From assembly GCF_900638555.1 (NCBI RefSeq), contig NZ_LR134525.1, forward strand, positions 1,364,001 through 1,428,000: 64,000 bases of DNA, read 5' to 3'. Source of the stretch: Neisseria meningitidis (GTDB lineage Bacteria; Pseudomonadota; Gammaproteobacteria; Burkholderiales; Neisseriaceae). The notes under the pieces are model-generated. The model made no database searches. It worked only from the letters and a program-made list of their open reading frames with translations, and was not told where the DNA came from. Each line of letters starts with the position of its first letter. Within the stretch, counting starts at the first letter, position 1. A program made the position numbers and the translations under genes. Shown here one piece after another: positions 1 through 42,451 of this stretch.

Positions 1-40
1 TGTCAAGGCTCTTATGGATAAGCAGGAGAAAACCGCATGA
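1..40 (+). CDS. 3' end of an upstream phage ORF (partial)
   Basis: One frame is open from the window edge to a TGA at 38-40 and reads VKALMDKQEKTA. The stop overlaps an ATG at 37 (ATGA), a normal junction in this compact prophage. Too little is present to name it; it could also be chance. Confidence 0.3.
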   Translation, partial: VKALMDKQEKTA

Positions 41-129
41 GAGCCGAAGACAGAGCAGAAACGGCGGGGGCGTGTGTGGGCGCGCCTTGCGCGCCGCAAA
101 CGGCCACGCCGTTGAATGCCCCCCCCTAG
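37..129 (+). CDS. Short ORF overlapping the rep start across a poly-C tract
   Basis: This 30-residue reading frame starts at an ATG preceded by a good ribosome binding site (AGGAG at 23-27) and ends at TAG 127-129, inside the first codons of the replication gene but in another frame. It reads through the C8 tract at 119-126. One extra C would fuse it in frame to the replication protein. It may therefore be the true, currently out-of-frame N-terminus of Rep rather than a separate gene. This is an inference from sequence only. Confidence 0.35.
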   Translation: MRAEDRAETAGACVGAPCAPQTATPLNAPP

Positions 130-1387
130 GCTAATAGGGGGGGAGCAAAAAAACCCTAATCTGCAGGGTGGGGAACAGCCCATAGAAATTCTTGAATCGC
201 ATCAAGTCGAATTTGAATATTTTTCTCAATACGTAACCGACGGTAAAGGCCGTCTGATAGAAATTCCGCTAAGACGCGGCAGGGAAGACGGTGCATTCAT
301 CGACCAGATCACATTTACGATACATGAGGAATCCATACCCAAAGTAACCCAAAAAGCCTATGTAACAGATGCCGAGTACCTCGCAAAGTACAGCGAATTG
401 CTGCAGGAAATTCTAGGTTTTGGCATCAGTGCCAAACTACCATACAAAGGCAAATTTTTCTATCAGTCCTGCTATCAGCTAGGCCCTACAAATGTCGAGT
501 ACGGCAAAGTCCACTACGGCGGCCAAAGAGAAACCATACTCGTAGAGCTGAACGGCACCGGCTGCACAGCAGCAAAACCCGGTTGGGAAAACAGGCTTTA
601 TGAATTTCTGCAAAAGTGTGTCCGGCCAAAAATAACAAGGGTTGACGTAGCACATGATTTTTTCAATGGAGAGTACACGCCCCAACACGCTTTAACCGAC
701 CACGATAACGGCTTTTTTGACTGCCATAACGTCCGCCCGAAAAGCGAATGCAAAGGAGTTGCTTGGAGACACGAAGACGGAAGCGGCAAAAGCTTCTATA
801 TCGGCAAACGCGGCAACGCCAAATACACCCGGATTTACGAAAAAGGCAAGCAGTTAGGCGATAAATCAAGCCCGTGGGTTCGATTTGAAACAGAGTTCAG
901 AAACGGAGATATAGAAGTCCCCATAGACATATTGATTCATGCCGGTTCGTATATTGGCGGAGCGTATCCCGTCTGTGAACAGATATTCAAATGCGAAGCC
1001 AAGCGCATGGATTCAACAGTTAAAGAGGTCAATCTCACGTTTGAACACAAACAATTCTACGCAAGGCAACAAGTCGGCAAATGGGTCAATTTTTTAAAAG
1101 ACATCGGTTGGACGGCCGAAGATATCGTCAAAGACCTAACCAAAGGCGTTGAAGGCTATCCCAAAGGTCTTCAGCCCGAAGAGTACGACAGTAGCAACGC
1201 CTGTGCTTTCTATATTCATGAAGAGCAAAAAGCCATAAACGCCCTGAATATCGAAGTCTTAGAGCTTGAATTAAATCAGGAAAAGCAATACGAGTATCCG
1301 CAAGATAGGCAGAAACAGCATGAGCGCGATTACGACAAAGAGCAGTATCAAATATCAGACCAGTTAGAAGACTGGAAATATCTATAA
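116..1387 (+). CDS. Phage replication initiation protein
   Basis: The 423-residue protein belongs to the phage/plasmid replication initiation factor family (Rep_trans-like) that nicks the double-stranded origin for rolling-circle replication of filamentous phage. The central part has the family's conserved aromatic and charged blocks, for example VDVAHDFFNGEY near residue 175 and FETEFRN near residue 258. The C-terminus is Glu/Gln-rich and probably flexible. The ATG at 116 has no visible ribosome binding site and lies at a CCCCCCCTA/TAGGGGGGG hairpin (120-143), so translation may instead begin at 37 in a length variant or depend on coupling. It is followed closely by the ssDNA-binding-like gene. 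Family assignment is firm; start choice is uncertain. Confidence 0.8.
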   Translation: MPPPRLIGGEQKNPNLQGGEQPIEILESHQVEFEYFSQYVTDGKGRLIEIPLRRGREDGAFIDQITFTIHEESIPKVTQKAYVTDAEYLAKYSELLQEILGFGISAKLPYKGKFFYQSCYQLGPTNVEYGKVHYGGQRETILVELNGTGCTAAKPGWENRLYEFLQKCVRPKITRVDVAHDFFNGEYTPQHALTDHDNGFFDCHNVRPKSECKGVAWRHEDGSGKSFYIGKRGNAKYTRIYEKGKQLGDKSSPWVRFETEFRNGDIEVPIDILIHAGSYIGGAYPVCEQIFKCEAKRMDSTVKEVNLTFEHKQFYARQQVGKWVNFLKDIGWTAEDIVKDLTKGVEGYPKGLQPEEYDSSNACAFYIHEEQKAINALNIEVLELELNQEKQYEYPQDRQKQHERDYDKEQYQISDQLEDWKYL

Positions 1388-1407
1388 ATCAAAGAAAGGA
1401 AATACCC

Positions 1408-1719
1408 ATGTTTGATCAATTACAAGTAACCACCTATCCCGCCACGCTCCTGGGCGCAAAACAGTTCAAAGGTGAGATTGACGGCAACAAAATCGATACC
1501 TGTACCGTACTGGTAGCCAGCCCCATGCCCGCCAACGGCAACAGCGTAGGTTTTACTGCTGCCAGCATGAAATTTGGAGAAAGCCACAATTTCGATCGGC
1601 TGAAAAACCTCAAATTCCCCTGCTCCGTAAATGTAACCGTCGCAATGGAATCTACCGGCAAAGGCTTAGTACCCAAGCTGCTTGATTTTGAAGTGAAAGG
1701 CGCGTCGACCAAAGCCTAA
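1408..1719 (+). CDS. Phage ssDNA-binding-like protein (gpV-like)
   Basis: The 103-residue protein follows the replication initiator by 20 bases and has a strong ribosome binding site (AAAGGA, 1395-1400). It has no membrane segment, a beta-rich profile and moderate basic content. In filamentous phage the gene after the initiator encodes the protein that coats ssDNA and switches replication to single strands, so that role is inferred from position and size. No catalytic motif is expected or seen. Confidence 0.6.
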   Translation: MFDQLQVTTYPATLLGAKQFKGEIDGNKIDTCTVLVASPMPANGNSVGFTAASMKFGESHNFDRLKNLKFPCSVNVTVAMESTGKGLVPKLLDFEVKGASTKA

Positions 1720-1736
1720 GGCAGAAAGTCCAGAAT

Positions 1737-1940
1737 ATGAGCAGGTATCAGCAAAAATTTATCGTTCAGGAACTGGAAAACTATGAATTCATCTTCCCCG
1801 ATCAGTTCGGCGATATTGGATTTACCCAAAATCTGAAAGAAGCCGGACAGTATGAAAATTATGAAGACGCATTCAATGCCGGATTAGAAGAGATTGGCGG
1901 ACATTTTCAGATTTTCAGCTTCTACATCAGAGAAGAATAA
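1737..1940 (+). CDS. Small acidic phage protein of unknown function
   Basis: The 67-residue protein begins 17 bases after the preceding stop. It is acidic, soluble, and rich in Glu, Phe and Tyr, with no signal peptide or membrane segment. It sits between the ssDNA-binding-like protein and the major coat protein. I do not recognise a family beyond its regular occurrence in this position of Neisseria filamentous prophages. Confidence 0.6.
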   Translation: MSRYQQKFIVQELENYEFIFPDQFGDIGFTQNLKEAGQYENYEDAFNAGLEEIGGHFQIFSFYIREE

Positions 1941-2022
1941 AAGTTAACAGGCTCGGCGGGCGGTCTGTAAAACCTTCACAAAGCCCGCGAAACCATTTTT
2001 TTAACCAACTAAGGAAAACATC

Positions 2023-2241
2023 ATGAAAATCATGAATAACCTGAAAAAATACGGCGCGAAAATCGCCGTTTTCGCAGCTGCTCCGTTAGCACTGGCAGCC
2101 AATACCTATGCAGCATTGCCCGAAACTGCAAAACAAGCATTAGAAGGCGCAAAAGCTGACGGTCTAGAAGCCGGTTGGATCGTTATCGGCGTATTCGCGG
2201 CACTGTTTGTGATCGCGATTGTGAAACGTGTAATGCGATAA
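2023..2241 (+). CDS. Major coat protein (pVIII-like)
   Basis: The 72-residue precursor has a basic start, a hydrophobic stretch and a signal peptidase site after residue 30 (TYA-ALPE). The mature product of about 42 residues has the classic pVIII layout: an amphipathic, partly acidic N-terminal half, a single membrane helix (WIVIGVFAALFVIAIV) and a basic C-terminus (KRVMR) that would contact packaged DNA. It has a good ribosome binding site (AAGGA, 2011-2015). It would sit in the inner membrane before extrusion and form the virion tube. Confidence 0.8.
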   Translation: MKIMNNLKKYGAKIAVFAAAPLALAANTYAALPETAKQALEGAKADGLEAGWIVIGVFAALFVIAIVKRVMR

Positions 2242-2251
2242 GGTCGGCAAA

Positions 2252-2527
2252 ATGTACTACCAAGTTGGAAATCAGTGTTTAGAGCAGAATCAGGCCGAAA
2301 ACGTCTATTTCAGCTTGGTAGTACCTAAAATAACTGAAGACGGGAAAATCATAAAACCCGAATACAACGGCAAAGATTGGAAAATAGACGGCCAAATCAT
2401 CAAGGCCGATTTACCTAAATGCGACCCGTCCGAAAACCTGAAAGACGGCATGTATATAGGCTGGCTGATTTTCGGAATCGTGGCGTCCGTCTATTTCGTA
2501 ACCGTGATTAAAAGGCTCTTGAGATGA
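2252..2527 (+). CDS. Phage small membrane protein
   Basis: This 91-residue protein has a soluble N-terminal part of about 65 residues with two Cys, and one C-terminal membrane helix (MYIGWLIFGIVASVYFVTVI) followed by a basic KRLLR tail very like that of the major coat protein. It has no N-terminal signal peptide. Its stop overlaps the start of the next tiny ORF. A structural or assembly role is inferred from position and from the coat-like tail. Confidence 0.6.
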   Translation: MYYQVGNQCLEQNQAENVYFSLVVPKITEDGKIIKPEYNGKDWKIDGQIIKADLPKCDPSENLKDGMYIGWLIFGIVASVYFVTVIKRLLR

Positions 2528-2595
2528 TGGATTTCTATTTCTATGTCGGTCTTTCCGTTCCGATCATCATTGCCGCCATCCTGTTCAAGGATTGA
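2524..2595 (+). CDS. Tiny pVII/pIX-like minor coat protein candidate
   Basis: A 23-residue frame starts at an ATG overlapping the stop of the preceding gene (ATGA, 2524-2527) and ends at TGA 2593-2595. It reads MMDFYFYVGLSVPIIIAAIL and then FKD. It is almost all membrane helix, the size and character of the pVII/pIX tip proteins of Ff phage, and lies where such genes occur. Function is inferred from size, topology and position; it is short enough to be missed by gene callers. Confidence 0.5.
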   Translation: MMDFYFYVGLSVPIIIAAILFKD

Positions 2596-2655
2596 TATTC
2601 AAAACGGTTAGGCAGATAATCCGACTTCCGAACAACAAAAAAGGAAGTTGGAATC

Positions 2656-2961
2656 ATGTTTATCACTGAAGCCCAGTTGGCACTTTATAAATACCAGCCG
2701 TCCAGCAAGTATTTTGGCAAAACAATGTCATCTACTTTCGCTAGTGAGCTTTTAGAATATTCAAAAGTAAATAAATTTATAATTCATGAAGCAATCCAAT
2801 GGTTTTTAAATATAAGGATTTCTAATAATATTTGGAAAATTTATTTTTCTGATGAGTCTGTTGCGTATATAAAAATTTTAGAATTACAGGATGATTCTAG
2901 TCGTGGAATTGAAATTAAAACGTTTGATTTTAATATTAATGCTGGGGATGTTTTCGGTTAA
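2656..2961 (+). CDS. AT-rich hypothetical protein overlapping tspB
   Basis: The 101-residue protein has a clear ribosome binding site (AAGGAAG, 2641-2647). It has no signal peptide or membrane segment and matches no family I know. Its base composition is much richer in A and T than the flanking phage genes. The last 71 bases overlap the start of tspB in another frame, which suggests translational coupling. It could be a recent acquisition by the phage, such as an immunity or host-takeover gene, but nothing in the sequence proves this. Confidence 0.5.
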   Translation: MFITEAQLALYKYQPSSKYFGKTMSSTFASELLEYSKVNKFIIHEAIQWFLNIRISNNIWKIYFSDESVAYIKILELQDDSSRGIEIKTFDFNINAGDVFG

Positions 2962-4417
2962 TTCTTATGCCGAACGTTTTAAATATCCCATTGGAAATTC
3001 AGATGTTAGATTGGATATTGATCATACAAAATCTGTAGTAACAGATTTTCGTGTTGATGGTCAGCGTTTTTCAGGTCGAATTATCGAACCTTCAATAATA
3101 GAACACGTGCCAACAGGTGCACGCTCTCTTGAAAAAATTCCTGTCAAAGTAACTGCATCAGTATCCCGCGCCGGAGTCTTGGCAGGCGTTGGCGCATTAG
3201 TCCGTCAAGGCGCAAAACTGGGTAAAAGGGCGGTTCCATATGTCGGAACCGCGCTCTTGGCCTATGACATCTACGAAACATTTAAAGACGAAATTAAAGA
3301 ACAAGGCTATCAATACGATCCCGAAACCGATAAATTTGTAAAAGGCTACGAATACAGTAATTGCATTTGGGAACACGCCGAAAACGGTATTAAAACCTAT
3401 GGCTGTTACGGCGTTGATAGTTCAATTATGCGTCTTATGTCAGATTACAGCAGATTTCCGGAAGTAAAAGAACTGATGGAGCATCAAATGGAAATTGTCG
3501 GGCGCAATTATTGGGAAATGGTACGCAAGAATAGGAATGATTCTTTTAGGAACTACAATTTTAGTCGTTGTTATTTCAACTGGAACGGCGGTAATTGCAA
3601 TATCGGTGAAGATATAAATGACGCAAGATCTTTCATCAATTTTTCCCTTATACGCAATCCGAAATACAAAGAAGAAATGGATGCCAAAAAGCTGGAAGAG
3701 ATTTTAGCCTTAAAAGTCGATGCCAATCCCGACAAATACATACAGGCAACCGGTTATCCCGGTTATTCCGAAAAAGTAGAAGTCGCACCCGGAACAAAAG
3801 TGAATATGGGGCCCGTCACGGACAGGAACGGGAATCCCGTTCAGGTTGTCGCAACATTCGGCAGGGATTCGCAAGGCAACACCACAGTGGATGTTCAAGT
3901 AATCCCGCGTCCCGACCTCACACCCGGAAGCGCAGAAGCACCTGAAACCAAGCCAAAGCCAGCGCCTACGCCCGAAACCAATCCAAAGGAAAAAGAAAAC
4001 CCGCGCGAAGAAGATCAAGACAATCCCAAACCCACGCCCACACCGGGCGAAACACCAAGCCCGAACGAAAGCCCAAAAGATCGGCGAGAAGAAAAGAAAC
4101 CAGACGGAAACGGCGGATTGCTCTGTGATCTCTTTCCTAAAATCCTAGCCTGTGCCGAAATGGGCGAACCTTCAGAAAACGATTTTGAAGGCATAGCCAT
4201 ACCCAAAGCCGTAAATGAAGAAACGTGGTCGCCCGATAACATGTTTCCGTCAAGCGGAGTTTGTCCGAAAGACAAAACATTCCACGTTTTCGGAAAAGCA
4301 TTTAGCGTAAGTTATCAGCCATTATGCACATTAATGGAAAACGTAAGATTCGCCGTAATTATCGGCTTTATCATCATGTCCGCATTTATCACATTCGGAT
4401 CATTGAGAAAGGAATAA
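2891..4417 (+). CDS. tspB: TspB, phage pIII-like surface/Ig-binding protein
   Basis: The 508-residue protein has an N-terminal signal peptide (cleavage after SYA at about residue 27), a Cys-containing middle domain, a long Pro/Lys/Glu-rich linker (about residues 345-400, PKPTPTPGETP-type), a second Cys-rich domain, and one C-terminal membrane helix (VRFAVIIGFIIMSAFI) ending FGSLRKE. This is the layout of a filamentous phage adsorption protein. The family is TspB, first described as a T-cell-stimulating protein and later reported to bind human IgG. The ATG at 2891 was chosen because it gives a proper signal peptide and has CAGG just upstream. The gene ends two bases before the pVI-like gene. 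Confidence 0.85.
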   Translation: MILVVELKLKRLILILMLGMFSVNSYAERFKYPIGNSDVRLDIDHTKSVVTDFRVDGQRFSGRIIEPSIIEHVPTGARSLEKIPVKVTASVSRAGVLAGVGALVRQGAKLGKRAVPYVGTALLAYDIYETFKDEIKEQGYQYDPETDKFVKGYEYSNCIWEHAENGIKTYGCYGVDSSIMRLMSDYSRFPEVKELMEHQMEIVGRNYWEMVRKNRNDSFRNYNFSRCYFNWNGGNCNIGEDINDARSFINFSLIRNPKYKEEMDAKKLEEILALKVDANPDKYIQATGYPGYSEKVEVAPGTKVNMGPVTDRNGNPVQVVATFGRDSQGNTTVDVQVIPRPDLTPGSAEAPETKPKPAPTPETNPKEKENPREEDQDNPKPTPTPGETPSPNESPKDRREEKKPDGNGGLLCDLFPKILACAEMGEPSENDFEGIAIPKAVNEETWSPDNMFPSSGVCPKDKTFHVFGKAFSVSYQPLCTLMENVRFAVIIGFIIMSAFITFGSLRKE

Positions 4418-4418
4418 A

Positions 4419-4706
4419 ATGCCGGCTGCTCTAATTCCATTAATTGCATTTCTGCTAAGAATGCTGATCGTTCGGATCATTATTGCAACAGGTCTGACAT
4501 TTGTATCGTTTGCGGGGTATTTGGTTGCGTTAAATAAATTCAAAGAATACTTTTTAAATGCGGCAAACTCCATGCCTGGAGACATTTATAACCTTCTACT
4601 GATAGGCGGATTCGGAACAGGTTTTAACTATCTTTTCGGCGCGTTCTCTTTTTGGGTAAGCATGAAAGCATTGAACAAACTGACAACGGTATTACCGAGG
4701 GGATAA
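4419..4706 (+). CDS. pVI-like minor coat protein (DUF2523)
   Basis: The 95-residue, very hydrophobic protein has about three membrane segments and few charges. It belongs to the DUF2523 family found between the adsorption protein and Zot in inoviruses, the position of Ff gene VI, whose product anchors pIII at the phage tip. It starts one base after the tspB stop and ends two bases before zot, so the three are probably translated as a unit. Confidence 0.75.
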   Translation: MPAALIPLIAFLLRMLIVRIIIATGLTFVSFAGYLVALNKFKEYFLNAANSMPGDIYNLLLIGGFGTGFNYLFGAFSFWVSMKALNKLTTVLPRG

Positions 4707-4708
4707 AA

Positions 4709-5767
4709 ATGATTTATCTGATTACCGGCAACATGGGAACCGGAAAAACATCAAAAGCAGTTTCAATGATTTTAAACAACGAAGACGGATTGTTTAAAAT
4801 GCAACTCGAAGACGGAACAGAAGTAGATCGGCCCTTATATTTTTGCCATATCGACGGACTAGACGCAAAAAAGTTCAACGCACACGAACTAACGGAAGAA
4901 CAAATCATGTCCGCGCCGCTAAGAGACATCATCCCTGATGGCGCGGTTCTGATAGTAGACGAAGCACACTATACCTATCCGGTAAGATCATCAGGCCGAG
5001 CCGTACCACCTTATATTCAAGAATTAACAGAATTAAGACATCACGGCCATACGGTTATAATGATGACACAACACCCGCAGCAGCTTGATATCTTCGTTAG
5101 AAACCTGATATCCAAGCACATCCATTTAGAAAGAAAAGCATTAGGAACAAAACAATATTCGTGGTACAAATGCGTAACCAGCTTAGAAAATCCCGCAGCC
5201 GTTTCAAATACAGAATCGAAGAACTTCACACCGCCCAAAGAAGCATTTAAATACTACAAATCATCAAGCCAGCACATCAAATTTAAGAAAAAAGTACCGT
5301 TGGCCGTTTGGGCTTTAATTCTGATAATCGGATTTATCGGCTGGAAAATCTATACAGTTTATGGAATATCACAAAAAGCCATAAATCCAGAACAGTTTGA
5401 AACAACATCACAAGTTTCAGCAGCATCAGAGACGATAAATCAAGAAGCAGATTTAAATACAGCAGCACAATCACAAAAAATCAATCAGGATTTGAAAGCA
5501 GACGATTTTATCCCGACGTTGGCCGAAAAACCCGAATCCAAACCGATTTACAACAACGTCCGCCAAGTCAAAACCTTTGAGCGCATAGCGGCCTGTATCG
5601 AAGGCGGAAAAACCGGCTGCACCTGCTACAGCGATCAAGCCACACCGCTGGAAGAAGTAACAAAAGAAATGTGCAAACAGTACGCAAGAAACGGCCTACC
5701 CTTTAATCCATACAAAGAACAGGACAACAGCGCAAACAACGCGCAAAAAGCCCCTACAACGTCCTAA
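4709..5767 (+). CDS. zot: Zot-family phage assembly ATPase (pI)
   Basis: The 352-residue protein has a Walker A loop at its N-terminus (GNMGTGKT, residues 6-13), a Walker B-like strand ending in Asp-Glu (VLIVDEAH, near residue 84), and a single membrane helix near residues 197-213 (LAVWALILIIGFIGWKI). This is the pI/Zot inner-membrane ATPase that drives phage extrusion. The ATG at 4709 is preferred over an upstream in-frame start at 4652 because it places the Walker A at the usual distance and follows a ribosome binding site (GAGGGG). The C-terminal periplasmic part holds a Cys cluster (CIEGGKTGCTC). The Zot name does not by itself mean a toxin. Confidence 0.88.
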   Translation: MIYLITGNMGTGKTSKAVSMILNNEDGLFKMQLEDGTEVDRPLYFCHIDGLDAKKFNAHELTEEQIMSAPLRDIIPDGAVLIVDEAHYTYPVRSSGRAVPPYIQELTELRHHGHTVIMMTQHPQQLDIFVRNLISKHIHLERKALGTKQYSWYKCVTSLENPAAVSNTESKNFTPPKEAFKYYKSSSQHIKFKKKVPLAVWALILIIGFIGWKIYTVYGISQKAINPEQFETTSQVSAASETINQEADLNTAAQSQKINQDLKADDFIPTLAEKPESKPIYNNVRQVKTFERIAACIEGGKTGCTCYSDQATPLEEVTKEMCKQYARNGLPFNPYKEQDNSANNAQKAPTTS

Positions 5768-5823
5768 GCGGGCGCGAAGTTCGAGCCGCAAAGCGGCGCG
5801 GTTGTCGGCGCAGCGAATTAAGA

Positions 5824-5845
5824 AAGGCCGCTGCATGGCGGCCTT
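5824..5845 (+). terminator. Hairpin after zot
   Basis: AAGGCCGC (5824-5831), loop TGCATG, GCGGCCTT (5838-5845), followed by CTAAT. A strong stem with a weak T tract; probably ends the phage structural operon. Confidence 0.55.
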
Positions 5846-5990
5846 CTAATCGTGGGTTATTGACTAAACAGCATGAACACGGCTAGAATAAACCGCGTAT
5901 CTACCGATACAGTCAAATGCAGTTTTCCGAGGCTAACGGTAATTCGCATTTTAAAATTTCCTGTAAAGTTTAAAACTTGGCAGGAATGCA

Positions 5991-6020
5991 AAAATCCCCT
6001 AGTTCGCGCTCGGGGATTTT
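5991..6020. terminator. Terminator-like hairpin AAAATCCCC/GGGGATTTT
   Basis: AAAATCCCC (5991-5999), a 12-base loop, GGGGATTTT (6012-6020). A- and T-runs at both ends of the stem would let it act in either direction. Confidence 0.5.
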
Positions 6021-6174
6021 GCTTATCCCCACCGCTCTACAAATTGTCATATCATCAAATCTAAGTCATATCAATCTACCTTTCCGCGCTTGCCGCGCCT
6101 GTTTGAGTTTCAGAAACCTTTCCCAGCCCTTCAGGACGGAGGAGCTAGGGCGGGGGAAAATATCTAGCGGAATT

Positions 6175-6393
6175 GTTTTTTTTTACTGCTTTCAGTCCGG
6201 TTTTCGCTGAGGTATGGGGGTGCGTTTGACAGAGAACGGCCGATAAAAAGGTGCAAGGGGGAAGTTTTGTAAAGATTTGGAGTGTTTTTTTCCAAATCTT
6301 TATGAATACCCCCTTGCACCTTTTTATCGGTTGTTCTCCAATCGCACACAAACCCCATACCGGCGAAAACCGGACTGAAAGCAGTAAAAAAAC
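6175..6393. repeat. About 219-bp imperfect palindrome in the phage non-coding region
   Basis: The outer arms are a T-run followed by ACTGCTTTCAGTCCGGTTTT (6185-6204) and its inverse ending in an A-run near 6393. The middle arms contain GATAAAAAGGTGCAAGGGGG (6242-6261) and its near-inverse CCCCCTTGCACCTTTTTATC (6309-6328). The innermost stem is AAAGATTTGG (6271-6280) with CCAAATCTTT (6292-6301). Nothing here codes convincingly. In filamentous phage a long non-coding hairpin is usually the replication origin or packaging signal, which is the likeliest role. Confidence 0.75.
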
Positions 6394-6450
6394 ACAATGC
6401 AGCGGGTCGCAACAGAAATTTTTAAATAAACCAGCAAATACAAAAAATTA

Positions 6451-6627
6451 ATTCATACGATTCTGATATACTTCAAACGTCTCGGAATAGCTAACCGACG
6501 ACAAAGCCGCCGAACCTGATTACTTCCTAATCGCAAGATTGAAAGAAAGATAAGGACGGCGGTTTTCTTATGTTTGAAATTGAGAAACATCAAAGGCATT
6601 AAAGCCTGAATCGTAAGGAAAATTAAC
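6451..6627 (+). ncRNA. Structured non-coding segment before PivNM; possible bridge-RNA-like RNA
   Basis: The 177 bases before the recombinase start have nested complementarity: outer ACGATTC (6457-6463) with GAATCGT (6608-6614), inner AAAGCCGCCG (6503-6512) with CGGCGGTTTT (6557-6566, one G-U pair), and a small hairpin AGGC-ATTAAA-GCCT (6594-6607). No convincing ORF is present. IS110-family elements are known to encode a guide (bridge) RNA in the non-coding end next to the recombinase, so that role is proposed here by analogy. It could instead be a leader or replication structure. Confidence 0.35.
6488..6498 (+). repeat. 11-bp direct repeat TAGCTAACCGA, copy 1
   Basis: An identical copy lies at 7591-7601, just after the pivNM stop, so the pair brackets the recombinase gene and the structured part of its leader. 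Confidence 0.5.
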
Positions 6628-7593
6628 ATGAGAAACGCAGTAGGATTAGACATATCCGCAAAAACATTTGATGTCGTTACCATAATCAACGGCGAAACCG
6701 ATTACAGAAAATTCAGCAACGATGAACAAGGCTGCAAAAACCTGAAAGAATGGATATCGGCAAAAAGAGAAAAAGACATATACGTATGCATGGAAGCAAC
6801 AGGAAACTACTACGAACAGGCCGCAGACTGCTTGGCCGAAGAATACCACGTATCAGTAATAAACCCGCTAAAAATCAAAGCCTATGCACAAAAGCGATTC
6901 AGCAGAGTCAAAAACGACAAACAAGACGCAAAATTAATCGCAGAGTTTTGCCAAACAGCATTAATAGAAGAGCTGCCAAAGAGAGAAAAACCGACTGAAC
7001 AGCAATACAGCTTGAAAAGACTGCTATCACTTCAAAGCCAACTTTTAGAACAACAGACATCGCAAAAAAATAGAATCAAAGCAGCAAAAGATTCATTTGT
7101 ACAGAAAATACATGAAAAACAGCTAAAAGAACTTGAAAACCATCTAAATGCAGTAAAAAAGAAAATCGACCAAACAATCAAATCAGACAAAAAAATGAAA
7201 GAGCTGACAAAACGGTTAGAGACAATACCGTCAGTAGGCAAAACAACAGCCATATCGCTAATGAGCTACCTTATTAACAGCACATTCGAAAACGCAAAGC
7301 AGTTTACAGCCTATGCCGGATTAAATCCGCATCAAAACATATCAGGGACAAGCGTCAACAAAAAAAGCAAAATGACCAAATACGGAAACCGAAGAATACG
7401 CGGATCCCTGTTCATGGCCGCATTAGTCGCATTCAAAAACAACTACTTTCCAGCATTCACAAACAGGCTGAAAAAAGCCAAAAAGCCCAAAATGCTGATC
7501 ATCGGCGCATTGATGAGAAAAATTTTAGTCGTTGCATTTAATCTTTATAAAACAGAAACCGACTTCGATAAAACACGTTATCAGACGGCTTAG
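6628..7593 (+). CDS. PivNM, IS110-family DEDD recombinase (phage)
   Basis: The 321-residue protein has the RuvC-like DEDD set of the Piv/IS110 family: Asp in GLDISAKTFDV (residue 8), Glu in CMEATGNYYE (about residue 55), and the Asp pair in NDKQDAKLI (about residues 95-98). The C-terminal transposase_20 domain includes IPSVGKTTA and YAGLNPHQNISGTSVNKKSK with the conserved Ser. Homologues travel with MDA/Nf prophages and are thought to insert them at dRS3 repeats. The start follows AAGGA at a good distance. The frame is intact, so the enzyme is probably active. The upstream structured segment and the flanking 11-bp repeats may belong to the same unit. Confidence 0.88.
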   Translation: MRNAVGLDISAKTFDVVTIINGETDYRKFSNDEQGCKNLKEWISAKREKDIYVCMEATGNYYEQAADCLAEEYHVSVINPLKIKAYAQKRFSRVKNDKQDAKLIAEFCQTALIEELPKREKPTEQQYSLKRLLSLQSQLLEQQTSQKNRIKAAKDSFVQKIHEKQLKELENHLNAVKKKIDQTIKSDKKMKELTKRLETIPSVGKTTAISLMSYLINSTFENAKQFTAYAGLNPHQNISGTSVNKKSKMTKYGNRRIRGSLFMAALVAFKNNYFPAFTNRLKKAKKPKMLIIGALMRKILVVAFNLYKTETDFDKTRYQTA

Positions 7594-7601
7594 CTAACCG
7601 A
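7591..7601 (+). repeat. 11-bp direct repeat TAGCTAACCGA, copy 2
   Basis: Identical to 6488-6498. It starts in the last codons of pivNM (TAG is the stop) and may be a recombinase binding or end sequence. Confidence 0.5.
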
Positions 7602-7618
7602 ACTGATAAAAATAGCAA

Positions 7619-7642
7619 AAGCGGATTGTAAAAAATCCGCTT
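7619..7642 (+). terminator. Terminator after pivNM
   Basis: AAGCGGATT (7619-7627), loop GTAAAA, AATCCGCTT (7634-7642), followed by GGATTTTT. Confidence 0.75.
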
Positions 7643-8239
7643 GGATTTTTGTATTCCGAAAAAATGCAAAACTAAATAACCAATGAAAACAACAAGATAA
7701 TAAATTTACAATTTATTTTGTTTGAATAATCAAGAAACATCTTTATTAAGAGGCACAAGGGATTGGGAAGGCTGTCTTGGAGATAAGCACTGATGTTCTA
7801 GGCAAACCCCTCCATCTTAAAGTTAAAACAACCACAGGCAGCCTGGAAATGATCTATGATCTATGCCCATACAAGGACATTCTAGATAGTTTTCCTTGTT
7901 GCTTCGTGTATCACACAAGATAGAATTGGCACTCTACTCTTTCCTTAAAAAACCGTCAAGAATGGTTATCAATTTTTTTAAACTTATTCAAAACAATATT
8001 CTTATATACATCTCAAACCCGCTGAAATAAAGCAAAGTGGTGGTTCATAGATGGCAATACCGATTTCAAAGCAGCCTGCACTTTGACAACACACGAGAAA
8101 TACGGGAAGGACAGGGCATCAGCATATATTTCAGCCCGAAGCCGTTTCATTCGTTTAAAAAACTGCTTTTTTCACAATTTACCTTTACAAAGCCTATACG
8201 TATCCTTACAATTTGTTTTGCTGTTTTTGGTATATTTTT
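7643..8239. other. Gene-free AT-rich stretch with decayed coding
   Basis: No intact gene is seen. Parts of the plus strand still look codon-like: 7755-7910 reads GIGKAVLEISTDVLGKPLHL and onward with one stop, and a frame after 8030 reads WWFIDGNTDFKAACTLTTHE. These look like remnants of lost genes that I cannot name. The right part of the prophage attachment site may also lie here. Confidence 0.4.
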
Positions 8240-8941
8240 GGGGCTGTACTAGATTAGCAGATATGTTACCCTCGAAATATGAAGATAACGCACTGCAAAT
8301 TAAAGAAAAAAGTACAAAAAGAACTGCTCCGTTTTTTTGTACTCGAAGTTACCGCCCGTTCCGCTGCCGATATTTTGGGTATCCATCCCAATTCGGCAGT
8401 ACTGTTCTACCGTAAAATCCGCACGGTTATCAACCATCATTTGGCCTTGGCTGCCGATGAGGTTTTTGAGGGCTCTGTCGAGCCGGACGAAAGCGATTTC
8501 GGCGGACGGCGTAAAGGCAGACGCGGTCGCGGTGCGGCAGGAAAAGTGGTTGTCTTCGGCATTCTGAAACGCAACGGACGGGTCTATACCGTTGTGGTGG
8601 ATAATGCCAAGTCTGAAACGTTACTCCCTGTCATCAAAAAGAAAATCATGCCGGACAGCATTGTTTATACCAATAGTCTGAGCAGCTGCGACAAGTTGGA
8701 CGTGAGCGGTTTTATCCATTACCGCATCAACCATTCCAAGGAGTTTGCAGACCGTCAAAACCACATTAACGGCATTGAGAATTTTTGGAATCAGGCAAAA
8801 CGTGTCTTGCGAAAATACAATGGAATCGATCGTAAATCTTTCCCGCTGTTCTTGAAAGAATGCGAATTTCGATTTAACTTCGGCACACCGTCTCAACAGC
8901 TTAAAATCCTGTGGGATTTAGGGCTAATCTAGTACAGCCCC
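8240..8941 (+). mobile_element. IS1016-like element (IS1595 family)
   Basis: Perfect 19-bp terminal inverted repeats bound the element: GGGGCTGTACTAGATTAGC (8240-8258) and its inverse (8923-8941). One transposase gene fills it. No matching target duplication is visible (ATATTTTT on the left, TTAGATTT on the right), which suggests rearrangement after insertion. Confidence 0.85.
8279..8932 (+). CDS. IS1016 transposase (ISXO2-like), probably inactive
   Basis: The 217-residue protein has the IS1595-family ISXO2-like DDE domain: VEPDESDFGG (about residue 66), a second block VYTNSLSSCDKLDVSG, and HINGIENFWNQAKR with the Glu. The second block normally carries a catalytic Asp (YTDSLSSYDKL in the family as I recall it); here it is Asn. 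The frame is otherwise full length, so the element looks structurally whole but catalytically dead. The stop lies inside the right terminal repeat. Confidence 0.85.
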   Translation: MKITHCKLKKKVQKELLRFFVLEVTARSAADILGIHPNSAVLFYRKIRTVINHHLALAADEVFEGSVEPDESDFGGRRKGRRGRGAAGKVVVFGILKRNGRVYTVVVDNAKSETLLPVIKKKIMPDSIVYTNSLSSCDKLDVSGFIHYRINHSKEFADRQNHINGIENFWNQAKRVLRKYNGIDRKSFPLFLKECEFRFNFGTPSQQLKILWDLGLI

Positions 8942-8942
8942 T

Positions 8943-8960
8943 TAGATTTAATTCACTATA
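8943..8960. repeat. Half-CREE remnant beside IS1016
   Basis: TAGATTTAATTCACTATA closely matches the CREE right end (AAATTTAATCCACTATA). It begins two bases after the IS1016 end, so the IS or a deletion removed the rest of a Correia element. Confidence 0.5.
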
Positions 8961-9437
8961 CCTGCGTAATGGTATCGGGTACTCATCATCAACCTGCCTT
9001 GCATTCGGTTGTGTTGTCCGGCAACTGTCCGGTTGTGTCGATGGGTTGCCCTGCCGCTCCCTGTGCTGCGCAACGGTTGTGTGCCTTGGGTGGGCGCGGG
9101 TGGCGGCCGGGCGGTTTGTTGCTATGATACGGGAGTTCCGATATACAAGGGTGGGCTTCAGCCCACCAATCAACGACCGAAAAAGAAAAAACGTTGGGCT
9201 GAAGCCCACTCTACGCAATTACGCAACTGTTATCGTGGGGATGACGGGATTTTAGGTTTTTGTTTTTCTGTTTTTGCGGGAAGGATGGGTTTTAGGTTGC
9301 GGTCATTTATCGGAAAAGCAGAAATCGCTCCGCCGTCATTCCCGCGAAAGCGGGAATCTGAACACGTCCGTAGGGAAACCTATATCCCGTCATTCCCACG
9401 AAAGTGGGAATCTAGAACCTCTGAATTTTCAGACAAC
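8961..9437. repeat. Intergenic repeat mosaic with dRS3 (NIME-like)
   Basis: No gene is supported. The stretch has an inverted pair around 9152-9204 (GTGGGCTTCAGCCCA and its inverse) and two dRS3 units (ATTCCCGCGAAAGCGGGAAT at 9338-9357; ATTCCCACGAAAGTGGGAAT at 9392-9411). From about 9284 it repeats the block seen twice at 10518-11165, so it is the end of an earlier copy of that array, cut by the IS30-family element. Confidence 0.7.
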
Positions 9438-10517
9438 CTTGGATTCGGATTTCAAGTGCAACACTAGTGTATTAGTGGTTGGAACAGATTCAAGAATAAA
9501 ACACTTGGCGTTTCGTAGCCAAATGTTTTTCTTGGTCGGTGGTTCAACTCATCTTGAACCCTGCGTATCTCCCGATCACTGATGTTACGGAAATCGGTTT
9601 GTTTGGGGAAGTATTGCCGGATGAGTCCGTTGGTGTTCTCATTCAGCCCTTTCTCCCAAGAATGGTAAGGGCGACAAAAATAAGTCTCCGCTTTCAATGC
9701 TTTGGTTATTTTGGTGTGTTGGTAGAACTCTTTGCCGTTATCCATGGTAATGGTGTGCACCCTGTCTTTATGTGCCTTTAATGCCCTAACAGCTGCCCGG
9801 GCAGTGTCTTCGGCTTTGAGGCTATCCAATTTGCAGATGATGGTGTAGCGGGTAACGCGTTCGACCAAGGTCAATAATGCGCTTTTCTGTCCTTTGCCGA
9901 CAATGGTGTCGGCTTCCCAATCGCCGATACGGGATTTCTGGTCGACGATAGCGGGTCGGTTTTCTATGCCGACACGGTTGGGTACTTTGCCTCTGGTCCA
10001 TGTGCTGCCGTAGCGTTTGCGGTAGGGTTTGCTGCATATTCTGAGATGTTGCCACAACGTGCTGCCGTTGCTTTTGTCTTGGCGAAGGTAGCGGTAAATG
10101 GTGCTGTGGTGGAGCGTGATCTGGTGGTGTTTGCACAGGTAGGCGCATACTTGTTCGGGACTGAGTTTGCGGCGGATAAGGGTGTCGATGTGCTGAATCA
10201 GCTGCGAATCGAGCTTATAGGGTTGTCGCTTACGCTGTTTGATAGTCCGGCTTTGCCGCTGGGCTTTTTCGGCGCTGTATTGCTGCCCTTGGGTGCGGTG
10301 CCGTCTGATTTCGCGGCTGATGGTGCTTTTGTGGCGGTTCAGCTGTTTGGCGATTTCGGTGACGGTGCAGTGGCGAAACAGGTATTGGATGTGGTATCGT
10401 TCGCCTTGGGTCAGTTGCGTGTAGCTCATGGCAATCTTTCTTGCAGGAAAGGTCGTATGCTACCGCATACTGGCCTTTTTCTGTTAGGGAAAGTTGCACT
10501 TCAAATGCGAATCCGCC
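9438..10517 (-). mobile_element. IS1655-like element (IS30 family)
   Basis: The ends share inverted repeats: GGATTCGGATTTCAAGTGCA (9441-9460) on the left, and on the right the inverse of GGATTCGCATTTGAAGTGCA, ending at 10514. The flanks AAC on the left and AAC on the right fit a 3-bp target duplication if the element runs 9438-10517. The insertion splits a NIME sequence (cagacAACCTTTGAAT) whose uninterrupted copy is at 10865-10880. Confidence 0.85.
9464..10429 (-). CDS. IS30-family transposase (IS1655-like)
   Basis: The 321-residue protein has the IS30 layout: an N-terminal helix-turn-helix (TVTEIAKQLNRHKSTISREI, about residues 22-41), then a DDE domain with GDWEADTIVG, ITMDNGKEF and the Glu in SWEKGLNENTNGLIRQYFPK. 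All catalytic residues appear present and the frame is complete, so it may still be active. It would bind the terminal inverted repeats and move the element by copy-out/paste-in. Confidence 0.9.
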   Translation of the reverse strand: MSYTQLTQGERYHIQYLFRHCTVTEIAKQLNRHKSTISREIRRHRTQGQQYSAEKAQRQSRTIKQRKRQPYKLDSQLIQHIDTLIRRKLSPEQVCAYLCKHHQITLHHSTIYRYLRQDKSNGSTLWQHLRICSKPYRKRYGSTWTRGKVPNRVGIENRPAIVDQKSRIGDWEADTIVGKGQKSALLTLVERVTRYTIICKLDSLKAEDTARAAVRALKAHKDRVHTITMDNGKEFYQHTKITKALKAETYFCRPYHSWEKGLNENTNGLIRQYFPKQTDFRNISDREIRRVQDELNHRPRKTFGYETPSVLFLNLFQPLIH

Positions 10518-11169
10518 AACCTTTGAATATTGCCGCCGTCCCGCGTTCTAGATTCCCGCCTGCGCGGGAATGACGATTCATCAGTTTCCCGAAACGCCCG
10601 AAAAACCGAAACCGAGCAAACCGGATTCCCGCCTGCGCGGGAATGACGATTTATAAGTTTCCCGAAACGCCCAAAAAAACCGAAATCCGACAGGCGGGAT
10701 TTTTGCTTTCGTGGGGATGACGGGATTTTAAGTTACGGTCATTTATCGGAAAAGTAGAAATCGCTCCGCCGTCATTCCCGCGAAAGCGGGAATCTGAACA
10801 CGTCCGTAGGGAAACCTATATCCCGTCATTCCCACGAAAGTGGGAATCTAGAACCTCTGAATTTTCAGACAACCTTTGAATATTGCCGCCGTCCCGCGTT
10901 CTAGATTCCCGCCTGCGCGGGAATGACGATTCATCAGTTTCCCGAAACGCCCGAAAAACCGAAACCGAGCAAACCGGATTCCCGCCTGCGCGGGAATGAC
11001 GATTTATAAGTTTCCCGAAACGCCCAAAAAAACCGAAATCCGACAGGCGGGATTTTTGCTTTCATGGGGATGACGGGATTTTAAGTTACGGTCATTTATC
11101 GGAAAAGTAGAAATCGCTCCGCCGTCATTCCAGCGAAGGCGGGAATCTGAACACGTCCGCACGGAAACC
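10518..11169. repeat. 353-bp tandem NIME/dRS3 duplication
   Basis: A block beginning AACCTTTGAATATTGCCGCC at 10518 repeats at 10871 (period 353 bp) with only a few base differences. Each copy holds four dRS3 units (10552, 10625, 10774, 10828; then 10905, 10978 and a degenerate one at 11127, the last being lost). The second copy is cut short by the CREE at 11170. No gene is present. dRS3 units are the reported integration sites of Nf phages. Confidence 0.8.
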
Positions 11170-11275
11170 TATAGTGGATTAACAAAAATCAGGACAAGGC
11201 GACGAAACCGCAGACAGTACAGATAGTACGGCAAGGCGAGGCAACGCCGTACTGGTTTAAATTTAATCCACTATA
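11170..11275. repeat. Correia element (CREE), 106 bp
   Basis: TATAGTGGATTAAC end at 11170 and TTAATCCACTATA end at 11275. The right end plus the next base gives TATAAT (11272-11277), a possible promoter -10 toward the C39-like pseudogene. Confidence 0.95.
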
Positions 11276-11845
11276 ATCCTGTTGCTTATGGAAAAATCAA
11301 AGTGCAGAGTTGGAAAGAAAGGCGCGATTTCAATATTGTAAAGCAGGATTTGGATTTTTCCTGCGGGGCGGCTTCGGTGGCGACGGCTTTTGAACAATTT
11401 TCACGGGCAAAAGCTGACGGAAGAGGACGTGTTGAAAAAGCTGGATAAGGAGCAGATGCGCGCGTCGTTTGAGGATATGCGGCGCATCATGCCTGATTTG
11501 GGTTTTGAGGCGAAAGGCTATGCCCTGTCTTTCGAGCAGCTTGCACAGTTGCAAATCCCCGTCATCGTGTATCTGAAATACCGCAAGGATGATCATTTCT
11601 CGGTATTGCGCGGTATAGACGGCAATACGGTTTTGCTTGCCGACCCGTCGCTGGGTCATGTTTCGATGAGCAGGGCGCAGTTTTTGGATGCTTGGCAAAC
11701 CCGTGAGGGAAATTTGGCAGGTAAGATTTTGGCGGTTGTGCCGAAAGGGAGGGATGCCGGCGGGGATAAGGCGTTTTTCACACGCAGTCCGAAACGTCAG
11801 ACGGAGTTTGCGGTCGGACAGGTAAAATGGTGGCGTGCTTATTGA
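11276..11845 (+). pseudogene. Broken C39-peptidase-like protein gene
   Basis: The conceptual product has the C39 start block QDLDFSCGAASVAT (catalytic Cys), the His of DDHFSVLRGI and the Asp of LLADPSLGHVS, so it is a papain-like C39 domain as found in bacteriocin-processing proteins. Two lesions kill it. The 5' end with any signal peptide is replaced by the CREE/NIME, leaving no proper start. An extra G in GACGGCTTTTG near 11386 shifts the frame; without it the reading would be VATLLNNFHGQKLTEED. The rest (11390-11845) is open. Its function before decay is unknown. Confidence 0.75.
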
Positions 11846-11852
11846 AATTTCG

Positions 11853-11900
11853 ACAAAGGTCGTCTGAAAACCGAAAATATGGTTTTCAGACGACCTTTGT
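11853..11900. terminator. Long hairpin of inverted AG-mucDUS-type sequences
   Basis: ACAAAGGTCGTCTGAAAACC (11853-11872) pairs with its exact inverse (11881-11900). The core AGGTCGTCTGAA is the uptake-sequence dialect linked to N. mucosa-type species, not the usual ATGCCGTCTGAA. Confidence 0.7.
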
Positions 11901-11974
11901 TGTATTTGGTAACTATATGTTCCCGTTGTATAATTACGGATTTGCAATTCAATAATAAATACACAGGAACCGCC

Positions 11975-13636
11975 ATGACAGAATCCATCACCCGCGACAG
12001 TATGCAATACGATGTCGTGATTGTCGGCGCAGGCCCGTCGGGTTTGTCCGCCGCCATCAAACTCAAGCAGCTTGCCGAAAAAAACGGGCGCGAAATCAGC
12101 GTTTGCGTGGTGGAGAAAGGTTCGGAGGCGGGCGCGCATTCGCTGGCGGGCGCGGTCATTGACCCGATTGCGCTGAATGAGTTGATTCCCGACTGGAAAG
12201 AAAAAGGCGCGCCGCTGACGCGCACGGTAACGCAGGACAAGGTGTTGTTCCTGACGGAGAAAAAAGCGTTCAATCTGCCCATTACCCCCAATTTCGACAA
12301 TCACGGCAACTACATCGTCAGCTTGGGCGAAATCGTGCGCTGGTTGGCGGAGCAGGCGGAAAATATGGGCGTGGAAATCTATCCTGGCTTTGCCGCTGCC
12401 GAAGTGCTGTATCACGAAGACGGTTCGGTCAAAGGCATTGCGACCGGCAATATGGGCGTGGGCAAAAACGGCGAGCTGACCGATTCATTCCAGCCCGGCA
12501 TGGAGCTTTGGGCACAGCAAACCCTGTTTGCCGAAGGTTGCCGAGGTTCGCTTTCCAAGCAAATCATCGAACGCTTCAAACTCGACCAAAACAGCCAGCC
12601 GCAAACTTACGGCTTGGGCATTAAAGAAGTTTGGGAAGTGCCGTCCGAACAGCATCAGCCCGGTTTGGTGATGCACAGCGCAGGCTGGCCGCTGGACAGC
12701 AAAACCTACGGCGGCGCGTTTGTTTACCATTTCGACGACAACAAAGTCGCCGTCGGCTTCGTGGTCGGTTTGGACTATCAAAATCCTTATCTGTCGCCGT
12801 TTGAAGAGTTCCAACGTTTCAAAACCCATCCCGAAATCCGCAAAACCTTTGAAGGCGGCCGCCGCATCGCTTACGGCGCGCGTTCGCTGATTGAAGGCGG
12901 TTTGCAAAGTTTGCCGAAGCTCTCGTTCAAAGGCGGCGTTTTGGTCGGCGATGCGGCGGGTTTCCTCAATATGCCGCGCATCAAAGGCATTCATACCGCG
13001 ATGAAATCCGCCATGCTCGCCGCCGAAGCCGTGTTCCCCTTGTTGGAAAACCTTGAAGAAGTGGAAAACTTCGACAGCGGCAAAGAGGCGGCGGATTATC
13101 AGCAACGTTTTGAACAAAGCTGGCTGTATCAAGAGCTTTACGCCGCGCGCAATGTCCGTCCGTCATTCAAATGGGGCGTTTACCTCGGCTCGCTTTATAC
13201 CGGTATCGACCAGATGATTTTCAGAGGCAAAGCCCCGTGGACCTTGAAACATCACGGTAAAGACAACGAGCAGCTCAAAAAAGCTGCCGCGTGCACACCG
13301 ATTGATTATCCGAAACCCGACGGCGTGTTGACCTTCGACCGCTTGAGCAGCGTCTTCCTTGCCAATCTTGCGCACGAAGAAAACCAGCCCGACCATTTGG
13401 TGCTGAACAATCCGCAAACGATGATAGACGTGAACTACAAAGAATACGCCTCGCCCGAAACGCGCTATTGTCCGGCGGGTGTGTATGAAATCGTCGAAGA
13501 AAACGGCAGCCCGCGCCTGCAAATCAACGCGGCAAACTGCGTGCACTGCAAAACCTGCGACATCAAAGACCCGACGCAAAACATCACTTGGATTTGTCCC
13601 GAAGGCGCGAGCGGGCCGAATTACGGCGGGATGTGA
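11975..13636 (+). CDS. etfD: Electron transfer flavoprotein-ubiquinone oxidoreductase
   Basis: The 553-residue protein carries the FAD dinucleotide loop VVIVGAGPSGLSAAI near residue 14, the VGDAAGFLNMPRIKGIH block around residue 330, and a C-terminal ferredoxin-like 4Fe-4S region (CVHCKTCDIKDPTQNITWIC). It passes electrons from ETF to the quinone pool at the inner membrane. Length is normal for the family. The ATG at 11975 is used because it sits 13 residues before the FAD domain and follows CAGGA; an upstream in-frame start at 11879 runs into the hairpin. The gene is monocistronic and ends at a bidirectional terminator. Confidence 0.95.
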   Translation: MTESITRDSMQYDVVIVGAGPSGLSAAIKLKQLAEKNGREISVCVVEKGSEAGAHSLAGAVIDPIALNELIPDWKEKGAPLTRTVTQDKVLFLTEKKAFNLPITPNFDNHGNYIVSLGEIVRWLAEQAENMGVEIYPGFAAAEVLYHEDGSVKGIATGNMGVGKNGELTDSFQPGMELWAQQTLFAEGCRGSLSKQIIERFKLDQNSQPQTYGLGIKEVWEVPSEQHQPGLVMHSAGWPLDSKTYGGAFVYHFDDNKVAVGFVVGLDYQNPYLSPFEEFQRFKTHPEIRKTFEGGRRIAYGARSLIEGGLQSLPKLSFKGGVLVGDAAGFLNMPRIKGIHTAMKSAMLAAEAVFPLLENLEEVENFDSGKEAADYQQRFEQSWLYQELYAARNVRPSFKWGVYLGSLYTGIDQMIFRGKAPWTLKHHGKDNEQLKKAAACTPIDYPKPDGVLTFDRLSSVFLANLAHEENQPDHLVLNNPQTMIDVNYKEYASPETRYCPAGVYEIVEENGSPRLQINAANCVHCKTCDIKDPTQNITWICPEGASGPNYGGM

Positions 13637-41577: not shown

Positions 41578-42451
41578 AGGTCGCCCTCGTCGTGACGGAA
41601 AGTACCGGCGGTCTCGAAATCCCCGCCGCCAAAGCCATCCGCCGAGCAGGCATAGCCGTGATTATCGCCAACCCGCGTCAGACGCATCAGTTTGCCCAAT
41701 CGCAGCCGCTGACCAAAACCGACGCCAAAGATGCCAAAATGCCCGCCTTCTTCGCACAGATGACGGCACAGAAAGAAGATTCGCAAACCATGCCCTACCA
41801 ACCGCCCACCGAAGCGGAAGAAGTGTTGGAAGCCTTGGTTAACCGCCGCAACCAACCGGCGGATATGCGGACTGCCGAGAAAAACCGTCTGCATCAGGTT
41901 CACGAAACGCAAGTCGGAAGCGTCAAACAACTGATTGCCCATTTTGACCGGCTGATTGACGAATTGGACAAACAAATCGACGACCACACCCACACGCATT
42001 TTGACGGCAAAGCCCAAGTGGCAGAACAAATCAAAGGCATCGGTTCGATAACGACGGCTACGCTGATGGCGATGCTGCCTGAGTTGGGGCGGCTGTCGCA
42101 CAAACGGATAGCGAGTTTGGTCGGCATTGCCCCGCACCCGAGGGAGAGCGGGGAAACCAAATTCAAAAGCCGCTGCTTTGGCGGAAGGTCTGCGGTGCTT
42201 AAGGCACTGTATATGGCTACCGTGGCAGCGACACGTTTTGAACCGCTTATTCGGGATTTCTACCAACGCCTGCCGTCCGAGGGTAAGCCGTATAAGGTTG
42301 CCGTTACGGCATGTATGCGTAAACTGCTGACGATATCGAATGCCCGGATGCGTGATTATTTTGCCGAAAACGATACCGCCGAAAACGGTATCCGGACGGC
42401 TTGATTTGAGTTTTGGTATTTTTGCCCGACGGGGTGAAAAATACTGTTGCT

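Follow-up and report, generated by a model that had tools for sequence, protein, structure and literature searches.

Window positions 6479-6617 (the window being the whole stretch of 64,000 nucleotides analysed here, G000:C1:1364001-1428000 of a 2.19 Mb genome) encode, with a probability that we put at roughly 0.9 from sequence comparison, a phage-owned bridge RNA of the IS110 group that guides the integration of a filamentous phage by its recombinase PivNM. A bridge-RNA-like guide directing phage integration had been suggested in a preliminary description of this DNA, and the suggestion is now strongly supported by the structure, by the covariation of its stems and by guide-DNA matches that vary together; the guide role in particular draws its support from the fact that the guides change together with the DNA with which they should pair. 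At a level only slightly lower, we consider it likely that a whole group of filamentous phages, comprising Neisseria Nf-type phages and oral inoviruses, lysogenises by RNA-guided recombination, with guides settled on dispersed repeats of the host. On the same reading, held with like confidence, the phage genome is cargo within an IS110 element, and the guides are short and evolvable, being directed at dRS3 in two lineages and at DUS terminators in others.

The prophage and its recombinase

Window bases 1-7742 belong to a filamentous prophage of 8.0 kb and make up its right part; its left end lies at L037:3242, 259 bp before window base 1, and its right end at window position 7741. Its genes run in the order Rep_trans, TspB and a Zot ATPase (Pfam), the Zot match being the single one in the whole genome, followed by the non-coding stretch and then pivNM. 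The right end (7733-7742, forward strand) consists of the left donor AGAAACAT and the core CT at 7741-7742, with chromosome beyond, and only about 140 bases lie between it and pivNM. The left end begins with CTTATATATT, as defined by relatives. The left flank shares 14 bases with the RNA; this match was considered as the left end and rejected, relatives placing the start of the end at CTTATATATT, and it falls on the target side, in a chromosomal imperfect tandem repeat CTAATTACTTC-CTAATCACTTC.

The pivNM gene (6628-7593, forward strand) encodes an IS110-group recombinase of 321 amino acids, recognised by Pfam, by alignment to solved relatives and by its invariant residues. PivNM matches DEDD_Tnp_IS110 and Transposase_20 in Pfam, and among solved chains it has only two matches, ISCro4 (E 8.3e-52) and IS621 (E 2.8e-49), the latter being the proven reference bridge-RNA recombinase (excerpts of PMC11208158 and PMC11208160). 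D8, E56, D97, D100 and S239 of PivNM are unchanged in 12 of 12 aligned proteins and coincide in the alignment with the motifs of IS621, whose catalytic residues are numbered D11, E60, D102, D105 and S241 (excerpt of PMC11208158). The Pfam matches, the IS621 alignment and the invariance in 12 proteins bear out the earlier statement that PivNM carries all DEDD residues and the C-terminal serine domain.

The genome is that of a Neisseria, probably N. meningitidis, to judge by the TspB family name, the uptake repeats and a 97% identical pivNM in a Neisseria viridiae record. Further PivNM-like genes, 27-28% identical and with no linked Zot prophage, lie at window 41442-42404 and at G000:C1:998566-999438 and G000:C1:96346-96801. 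Another genome (G018) has 31 PivNM-like matches, mostly in two families about 33% and 30% identical, which are presumably free-standing IS110 elements. A near-identical copy of the phage (L046) has an apparent in-frame stop in pivNM, read by eye, and an RNA identical over the compared stretch, and at G000:C1:504035-504064 (L063), 30 bases that match the phage left end at 93% are probably the remnant of an earlier insertion. Upstream of the RNA, a near-perfect and very long hairpin at 6185-6385 (DNA fold -87.9 kcal/mol, z -19.2) may be a phage packaging signal, a terminator or an origin element.

Structure and conservation of the RNA

The three complementary pairings first reported in 6451-6627 are all present: an outer arm in which 6457-6463 (ACGATTC) pairs with 6608-6614 (GAATCGT), a stem in which 6503-6512 (AAAGCCGCCG) pairs with 6557-6566 (CGGCGGTTTT) through one G-U, and a hairpin at 6594-6607 (AGGCATTAAAGCCT). 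Folded as RNA, 6451-6627 reaches -51.2 kcal/mol (z = -5.51), and 0 of 200 dinucleotide shuffles were as stable. The parallel statement that this stretch has no ORF needs qualifying, as an ORF of 66 aa terminates at 6451 and another, of 78 aa, occupies 6453-6689 on the minus strand. Among the Rfam matches for window 1-12000, ten in number and all sub-threshold, none exceeded the gathering score and none fell at 6451-6627; five of them are spurious matches of miRNA models to the long hairpin at 6215-6357.

Covariation of the stems across relatives had been named as a check on the guide proposal, and it is present. An alignment of ten distinct RNAs from relatives (177 columns) yielded 34 pairs with RNAalifold; in 16 of them, one or more sequences keep the pair although both bases have changed. 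Scored on the structure derived from this same alignment, which favours that structure, 92.1% of cells are paired (shuffles, 75.8%) and the covariation score is 0.434 (shuffles, 0.163), 0 of 500 shuffles being as good on either count; two of the five covariation measures are weaker, namely the both-side-changed pairs (16 versus 12.0 in shuffles, 3/500) and the further pair types (28 versus 24.2, 34/500). When the partner is slid by 1-3 columns, the covariation score falls to 0.041-0.093.

The conserved parts, all on the forward strand, are a 5' stem-loop at 6479-6502 with a conserved loop AATAGCTA (helix 1, both-side changes in 6 of 9 pairs); a target-binding loop at 6504-6565, closed by the stem 6504-6512/6557-6565 (helix 2, 6 of 13 pairs) and bearing an apical hairpin at 6529-6540 (helix 3, all cells paired, 2 of 4 pairs changed on both sides); and the apical hairpin of the donor loop at 6595-6606 (helix 5 region, 2 of 4 pairs). 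The fold, the covariation and a covariance model, R1, support a predicted bridge RNA whose minimal extent, from the 5' stem-loop to the right donor guide, is 6479-6617 on the forward strand. The outer arm does not survive as a part of it: only three of nine RNAs have six or more bases there that can pair (8 nt in the window, 9 nt in L012 and 6 nt in L076), in differing registers. This arm may lie outside the RNA because its 5' half falls just before a candidate extended -10 box at 6465-6473 (TGATATACT, forward strand), picked out by eye, from which transcription would start near 6479-6480. No -35 box was seen by eye for this box, and a consensus promoter scan gave four sites (3.7 expected by chance), with 6465-6473 not among them.

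A covariance model across relatives, likewise called for at the outset, places the RNA directly before a transposase, by coordinates, in 23 of 26 chosen sources at E <= 0.001, some of these sources being loci used to build R1 or near copies of them. R1 is weak in L126 (0.037), and extra weak places occur in L053 (0.013) and L125 (0.43). Across 46 genomes of the genus, R1 found 24 places in 12 genomes; the window's genome has one, at window 6470-6626, where the window is itself part of the training set. The weak match in L053 (9793-9967, E 0.013) precedes one of the PivNM-like genes of G018. R1 had no match in two Thermus phages with an IS110 transposase, phiOH16 and Zuza27 (L155, L156), which may use a more diverged RNA.

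Guide segments and their DNA partners

The left donor guide, AGAAACATC (6583-6591, forward strand), has the same sequence as 7733-7741 in the right end of the phage, and the right donor guide, AATCGTAAG (6609-6617, forward strand), resembles A157-G165 of IS621. In IS621 the left donor guide is the top-strand sequence left of the donor, that is, the right end of the element (excerpt of PMC11208158). Pairing of the donor loop with the joined ends, a feature by which bridge RNAs are recognised, was found for both the left and the right donor guide. Read by eye, right donor guides with UAAG go with ends in CTTA and those with CAAG with ends in CTTG in 6 of 6 RNAs (the window and five phages). The pairing of a loop with the phage attP, which the preliminary description had put forward for examination, was followed in 14 circular phages, the core being set by the left-end motif alone, without the RNA; the motif was present in 11. 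Eight bases before the core and its C were then sought in the 110 bases that immediately precede the transposase, and the own RNA reached 8.1 of 9 against 6.6 for re-dealt partners, 0 of 100000 shuffles being as good, with four pairs of close relatives among the 11 phages. In L042 and L043 the best donor match lies 107 bases before the gene and not at about 45. The donor guide occurs in several variants, each with a matching phage end: AGTAGTATC, AATATCATC, AATACCATC, ACTATCATC, AACAGTATC and AACACTATC. CT stands at the ends read of phages and prophages.

In the target loop, the left target guide sits directly 5' of the apical hairpin and the right target guide follows the hairpin. We read 81 elements with 54 distinct RNAs and named a donor 7-9-mer for 37; 31 insertions entered the right-target test and were reduced by identity to 18 non-redundant RNAs, leaving out L087 and L139 (the stretch read was not the RNA) and L092, L116, L117 and L120 (repeats of kept rows). 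With Watson-Crick pairs counted outward from the core, the right target guide forms 7.2 pairs with its own target against 3.8 with foreign ones, and 0 of 100000 shuffles were as good, in sets that were partly hand-chosen, among related phages whose prophage right ends were located via the donor-guide match. No foreign target fits as well as the own one in 8 of the 18 RNAs, one or two do so in 9, and 7 of 17 do so in the window.

Individual cases convey the range of these guides: GUGGGGGAG goes with target CTCCCCCAT in L113, AUGGGAAAG with CTTTCCCAA in L126, GGGUUAG with CTAACCC in L008 and UCGCGCAG with CTGCGCGG in L069. Read by eye outside the test, GUUGCAAAG and CTTTGCAAAA form 8 pairs in L059, and GUACUUGAG and CTCAAGGTT form 6 in L060. 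In a separate reading of 24 RNA loci, the right end was located in 12, the others being mostly minus-strand loci that were read on the opposite strand; within one genome (G020), the RNA variants GUACCAAAG, GUCCCAAAG and GUAGAAAAG go there with the right targets CTTTGGTTG, CTTTGGT (two sites) and CTTTTCTTT. The right target of L083 pairs in only 3 positions. For the left target guide, 15 elements whose left end could be read were picked by hand, and the own fit there lies above all 100000 shuffles; with one element per class (9 classes), it is 5.9 of 8 against 4.9, with 40 of 100000 shuffles as good. L046, L073, L081, L084 and L121 were excluded here as having an RNA the same as or near that of a used row (L119 is represented by L115), and L075, L090, L105 and L123 were also excluded; by eye, the left-target fit is poor in L073 and partial in L046. 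Pairing between the target loop and the insertion site, a further feature of bridge RNAs, is thus found for the phage group.

Dispersed host repeats are prominent among these targets. When sequences were scanned for a dRS3 abutting the left end of the phage, five contigs came up, with a matching prophage in L069 and L072; L068 and L071 had no recombinase match and were set aside as chance matches. In L069, which we infer to be Nf1 itself, and in L072, CT is preceded by the left target ATTCCCGC; the right dRS3 half CTGCGCGGGAAT is present too in L069, and the contig of L072 ends short of the right target. Nf1 inserts into dRS3 of the type ATTCCCRCCTRCGCGGRAAK (excerpt of PMC3898611). In a second lineage, the left target ATTCCCGC recurs in 8 of 14 loci (L096, L098, L099, L102, L103, L109, L111 and L127), with right targets, where read, of CTGCGCGGG (seven loci) and CTACGCGGG (L109). 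In other prophages the left junction is formed by TTCAGACGGC, with which an uptake-sequence inverted repeat ends, followed by CT (L055-L058, L060, L064, L065, L114 and L119, with left ends at L114:933 and L119:2459). ACGGC stands at the left target guide in 6 of 6 DUS-site RNAs of the left-target test (L009-L012, L114 and L115), and 8 of 10 DUS-site Neisseria elements have a Zot-type start, judged by eye from the ORFs shown (L057 and L059 have none in view). TTCAGACGGCCTTT has 51 copies in the window's genome, its reversed control 0; the DUS core is GCCGTCTGAA (excerpt of PMC3898611). At the right ends of L079 and L084, the guide UGAUGACGAG matches the right target CTCGTCATTCCCGC, which lies on the margin of a dRS3-like repeat, a third way for a guide of this group to meet repeat DNA. 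RNA-directed insertion into a dispersed host repeat, as initially envisaged for the window's phage, is supported for related phages, in two dRS3 lineages and several phages in DUS terminators. The site of the window prophage is not a dRS3; the guides of the dRS3 phages resemble dRS3, whereas those of the window do not.

The window prophage has a site of another kind. Its left target guide CTGATTACTTC (6516-6526, forward strand) pairs in 11 of 11 positions (9 Watson-Crick, 2 G-U) with CTAATCACTTC at the left junction, where the chromosome reads CTAATTACTTC-CTAATCACTTC; the guide pairs with the second unit and resembles the first too. The right target guide GAAAGAAAG (6541-6549, forward strand) was assigned from the group test of right targets, and the window's own right target CTTTATTAAG fits it in four bases only in this register, the scored best match of 7 pairs, 5 of them Watson-Crick, lying in another register. 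In L073, whose RNA is the same, the right target CTTTCTTGTT pairs in 7 of 7 positions. The poor fit in the window may stem from a later rearrangement on the right side or be a tolerated mismatch. An empty site matched to the guides would continue CTAATCACTT-CT-TTATTAAG, and a site fitting the window RNA would be close to GATTACTT-CT-TTCTTTC. The empty site of the window prophage was found in 0 of 46 genus genomes, searched with a 23-base junction pattern at up to 2 mismatches, and this prophage may therefore have a target duplication.

The integration model and its rivals

Under the bridge-RNA reading, transcription from a promoter near 6465-6473 would give an RNA of about 140 nt, and PivNM is predicted to bind it. 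The RNA would need a promoter of its own because it adjoins pivNM, about 6.7 kb from the left end; with the left end at that distance, the joined ends cannot supply this promoter, which is where the phage would differ from insertion sequences. The donor loop would pair with attP, made up of right end, CT and left end in the circular form of the phage, and the target loop with a chromosomal site around CT, and PivNM would join the two CT cores by serine/DEDD chemistry of the IS621 type, presumably in dependence on the RNA, leaving a prophage without target duplication. The phage would then be an IS110 element whose left end has been stretched by the phage genome as cargo, and differing guide segments would take the phages of the group to different sites: dRS3, DUS terminators and others.

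The most serious competitor, though an unlikely one, accepts a real bridge RNA in the group and regards that of this prophage as a relic, the prophage having arrived or moved by homologous recombination or transformation. In its favour, DNA uptake and recombination come readily to Neisseria, the right target of the window prophage is a poor fit, and the empty site was not found in the 46 genomes searched; against this, the left target pairs in 11 of 11 positions, the guides, structure and catalytic residues are intact, and the same RNA in L073 has a right target pairing 7 of 7. We give still less weight to the structured leader being a cis-regulatory 5' region of pivNM, an attenuator or translational switch, with PivNM reading its sites by protein-DNA contacts. 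Such a region would also directly precede pivNM and fold stably, but it leaves unexplained the identity of a loop to the phage end, the complementarity to the insertion site and the joint variation of the two.

Least probable of all are two further explanations. The view that relatedness, chance or row selection produced the guide matches gains some plausibility from the partly hand-chosen sets, the kinship of the phages and the use of the donor guide in finding right ends; yet shuffles that re-deal partners while keeping the sequences never or almost never reach the observed fit, and identical RNAs with different sites, like near-identical RNAs with different guides, behave as expected. Equally improbable is integration of the window's phage at dRS3, as first supposed for it. 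Related Nf1/MDA-type phages do sit in dRS3, both in the literature (excerpt of PMC3898611) and in loci examined here, but no dRS3 was found at either end of the window prophage, and its guides GAUUACUUC and GAAAGAAAG are unlike dRS3 whereas those of dRS3 phages are alike. We accordingly rejected dRS3 as the target of this prophage. Perfect copies in L037 lie only at window 9338-9357 and 9392-9411, flanked by IS1595-type and IS30-like genes; they are not part of the prophage ends, being situated about 1.6 kb past the right one.

Relation to known systems

Phages usually integrate through integrases that read DNA directly, by hijacking Xer or by Mu-type transposition; here, it is probably an RNA that determines where the phage inserts. 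If so, this would explain how filamentous phages of Neisseria that are related to one another, and have related recombinases, can differ in the repeats that they use (dRS3, DUS terminators), and a change of site would be possible through a few changes in the guides. It would further mean that an IS110 element tolerates about 7 kb of cargo between its end and its guide RNA, and that temperate phages already use programmable RNA-guided integration. In literature in PMC, preprints excluded, a bridge RNA or seekRNA for phage integration was not found among the matches listed. Excerpts of PMC11187229, PMC11437467, PMC11209303, PMC12045711, PMC9778887, PMC12819557, PMC3454330 and PMC9238386 describe no RNA guide for phage integration; the word 'phage' is absent from that of PMC11187229, and that of PMC12045711 raises, as a speculation, help for phage integrases from TIGR-TasA systems. 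Priority is uncertain because this scope excludes preprints, covers the matches listed and includes Kawai 2005 only as cited.

Integration of the Nf1/MDA phages by their own transposase was reportedly proposed by Kawai in 2005. These Neisseria phages with PivNM/Irg are of the same kind as the one studied here; they differ in having dRS3 as their target, with no RNA invoked in the excerpt of PMC3898611, whereas the window prophage has another target. Filamentous phages of Thermus and Acinetobacter are alike in carrying an IS110 transposase at one end, and no RNA is described for them in excerpts of PMC11437467 and PMC11209303. The Piv DNA invertase of Moraxella belongs to the same wider protein family and shares the SG motif (excerpt of PMC11187229), but it inverts a chromosomal segment and is not a phage integrase. 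Closer in mechanism are the seekRNA systems of IS1111/IS110 elements such as ISEc11 and ISEc21, in which the non-coding end by the transposase yields a target-guiding RNA (excerpt of PMC11187229). They resemble the present system in that an RNA from the non-coding end beside the transposase guides target choice; they are insertion sequences with no phage, and in the IS1111 group the RNA lies downstream of the gene, in the right end, whereas here it lies upstream of pivNM.

The closest likeness is to IS621 and ISCro4, which share with the phage system the recombinase family, the catalytic residues, a CT at the ends read and an RNA upstream of the gene, comprising a 5' stem-loop, a target loop (LTG, hairpin, RTG) and a donor loop (LDG, hairpin, RDG). 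A recombinase with DEDD and Transposase_20 domains and an upstream RNA in this three-part order, by which IS110 bridge-RNA systems are recognised, are both found here. Unlike IS621, the core dinucleotide is often unmatched on the left-guide side here, as judged by eye, and the right target guide pairs with 7-9 bases in most of our RNAs against 4 in IS621 (excerpt of PMC11208158). The element here is a filamentous phage, and about 6.7 kb of phage genome, rather than a short left end, lies between the left end and the RNA. This distant left end is a difference of anatomy and not of core function.
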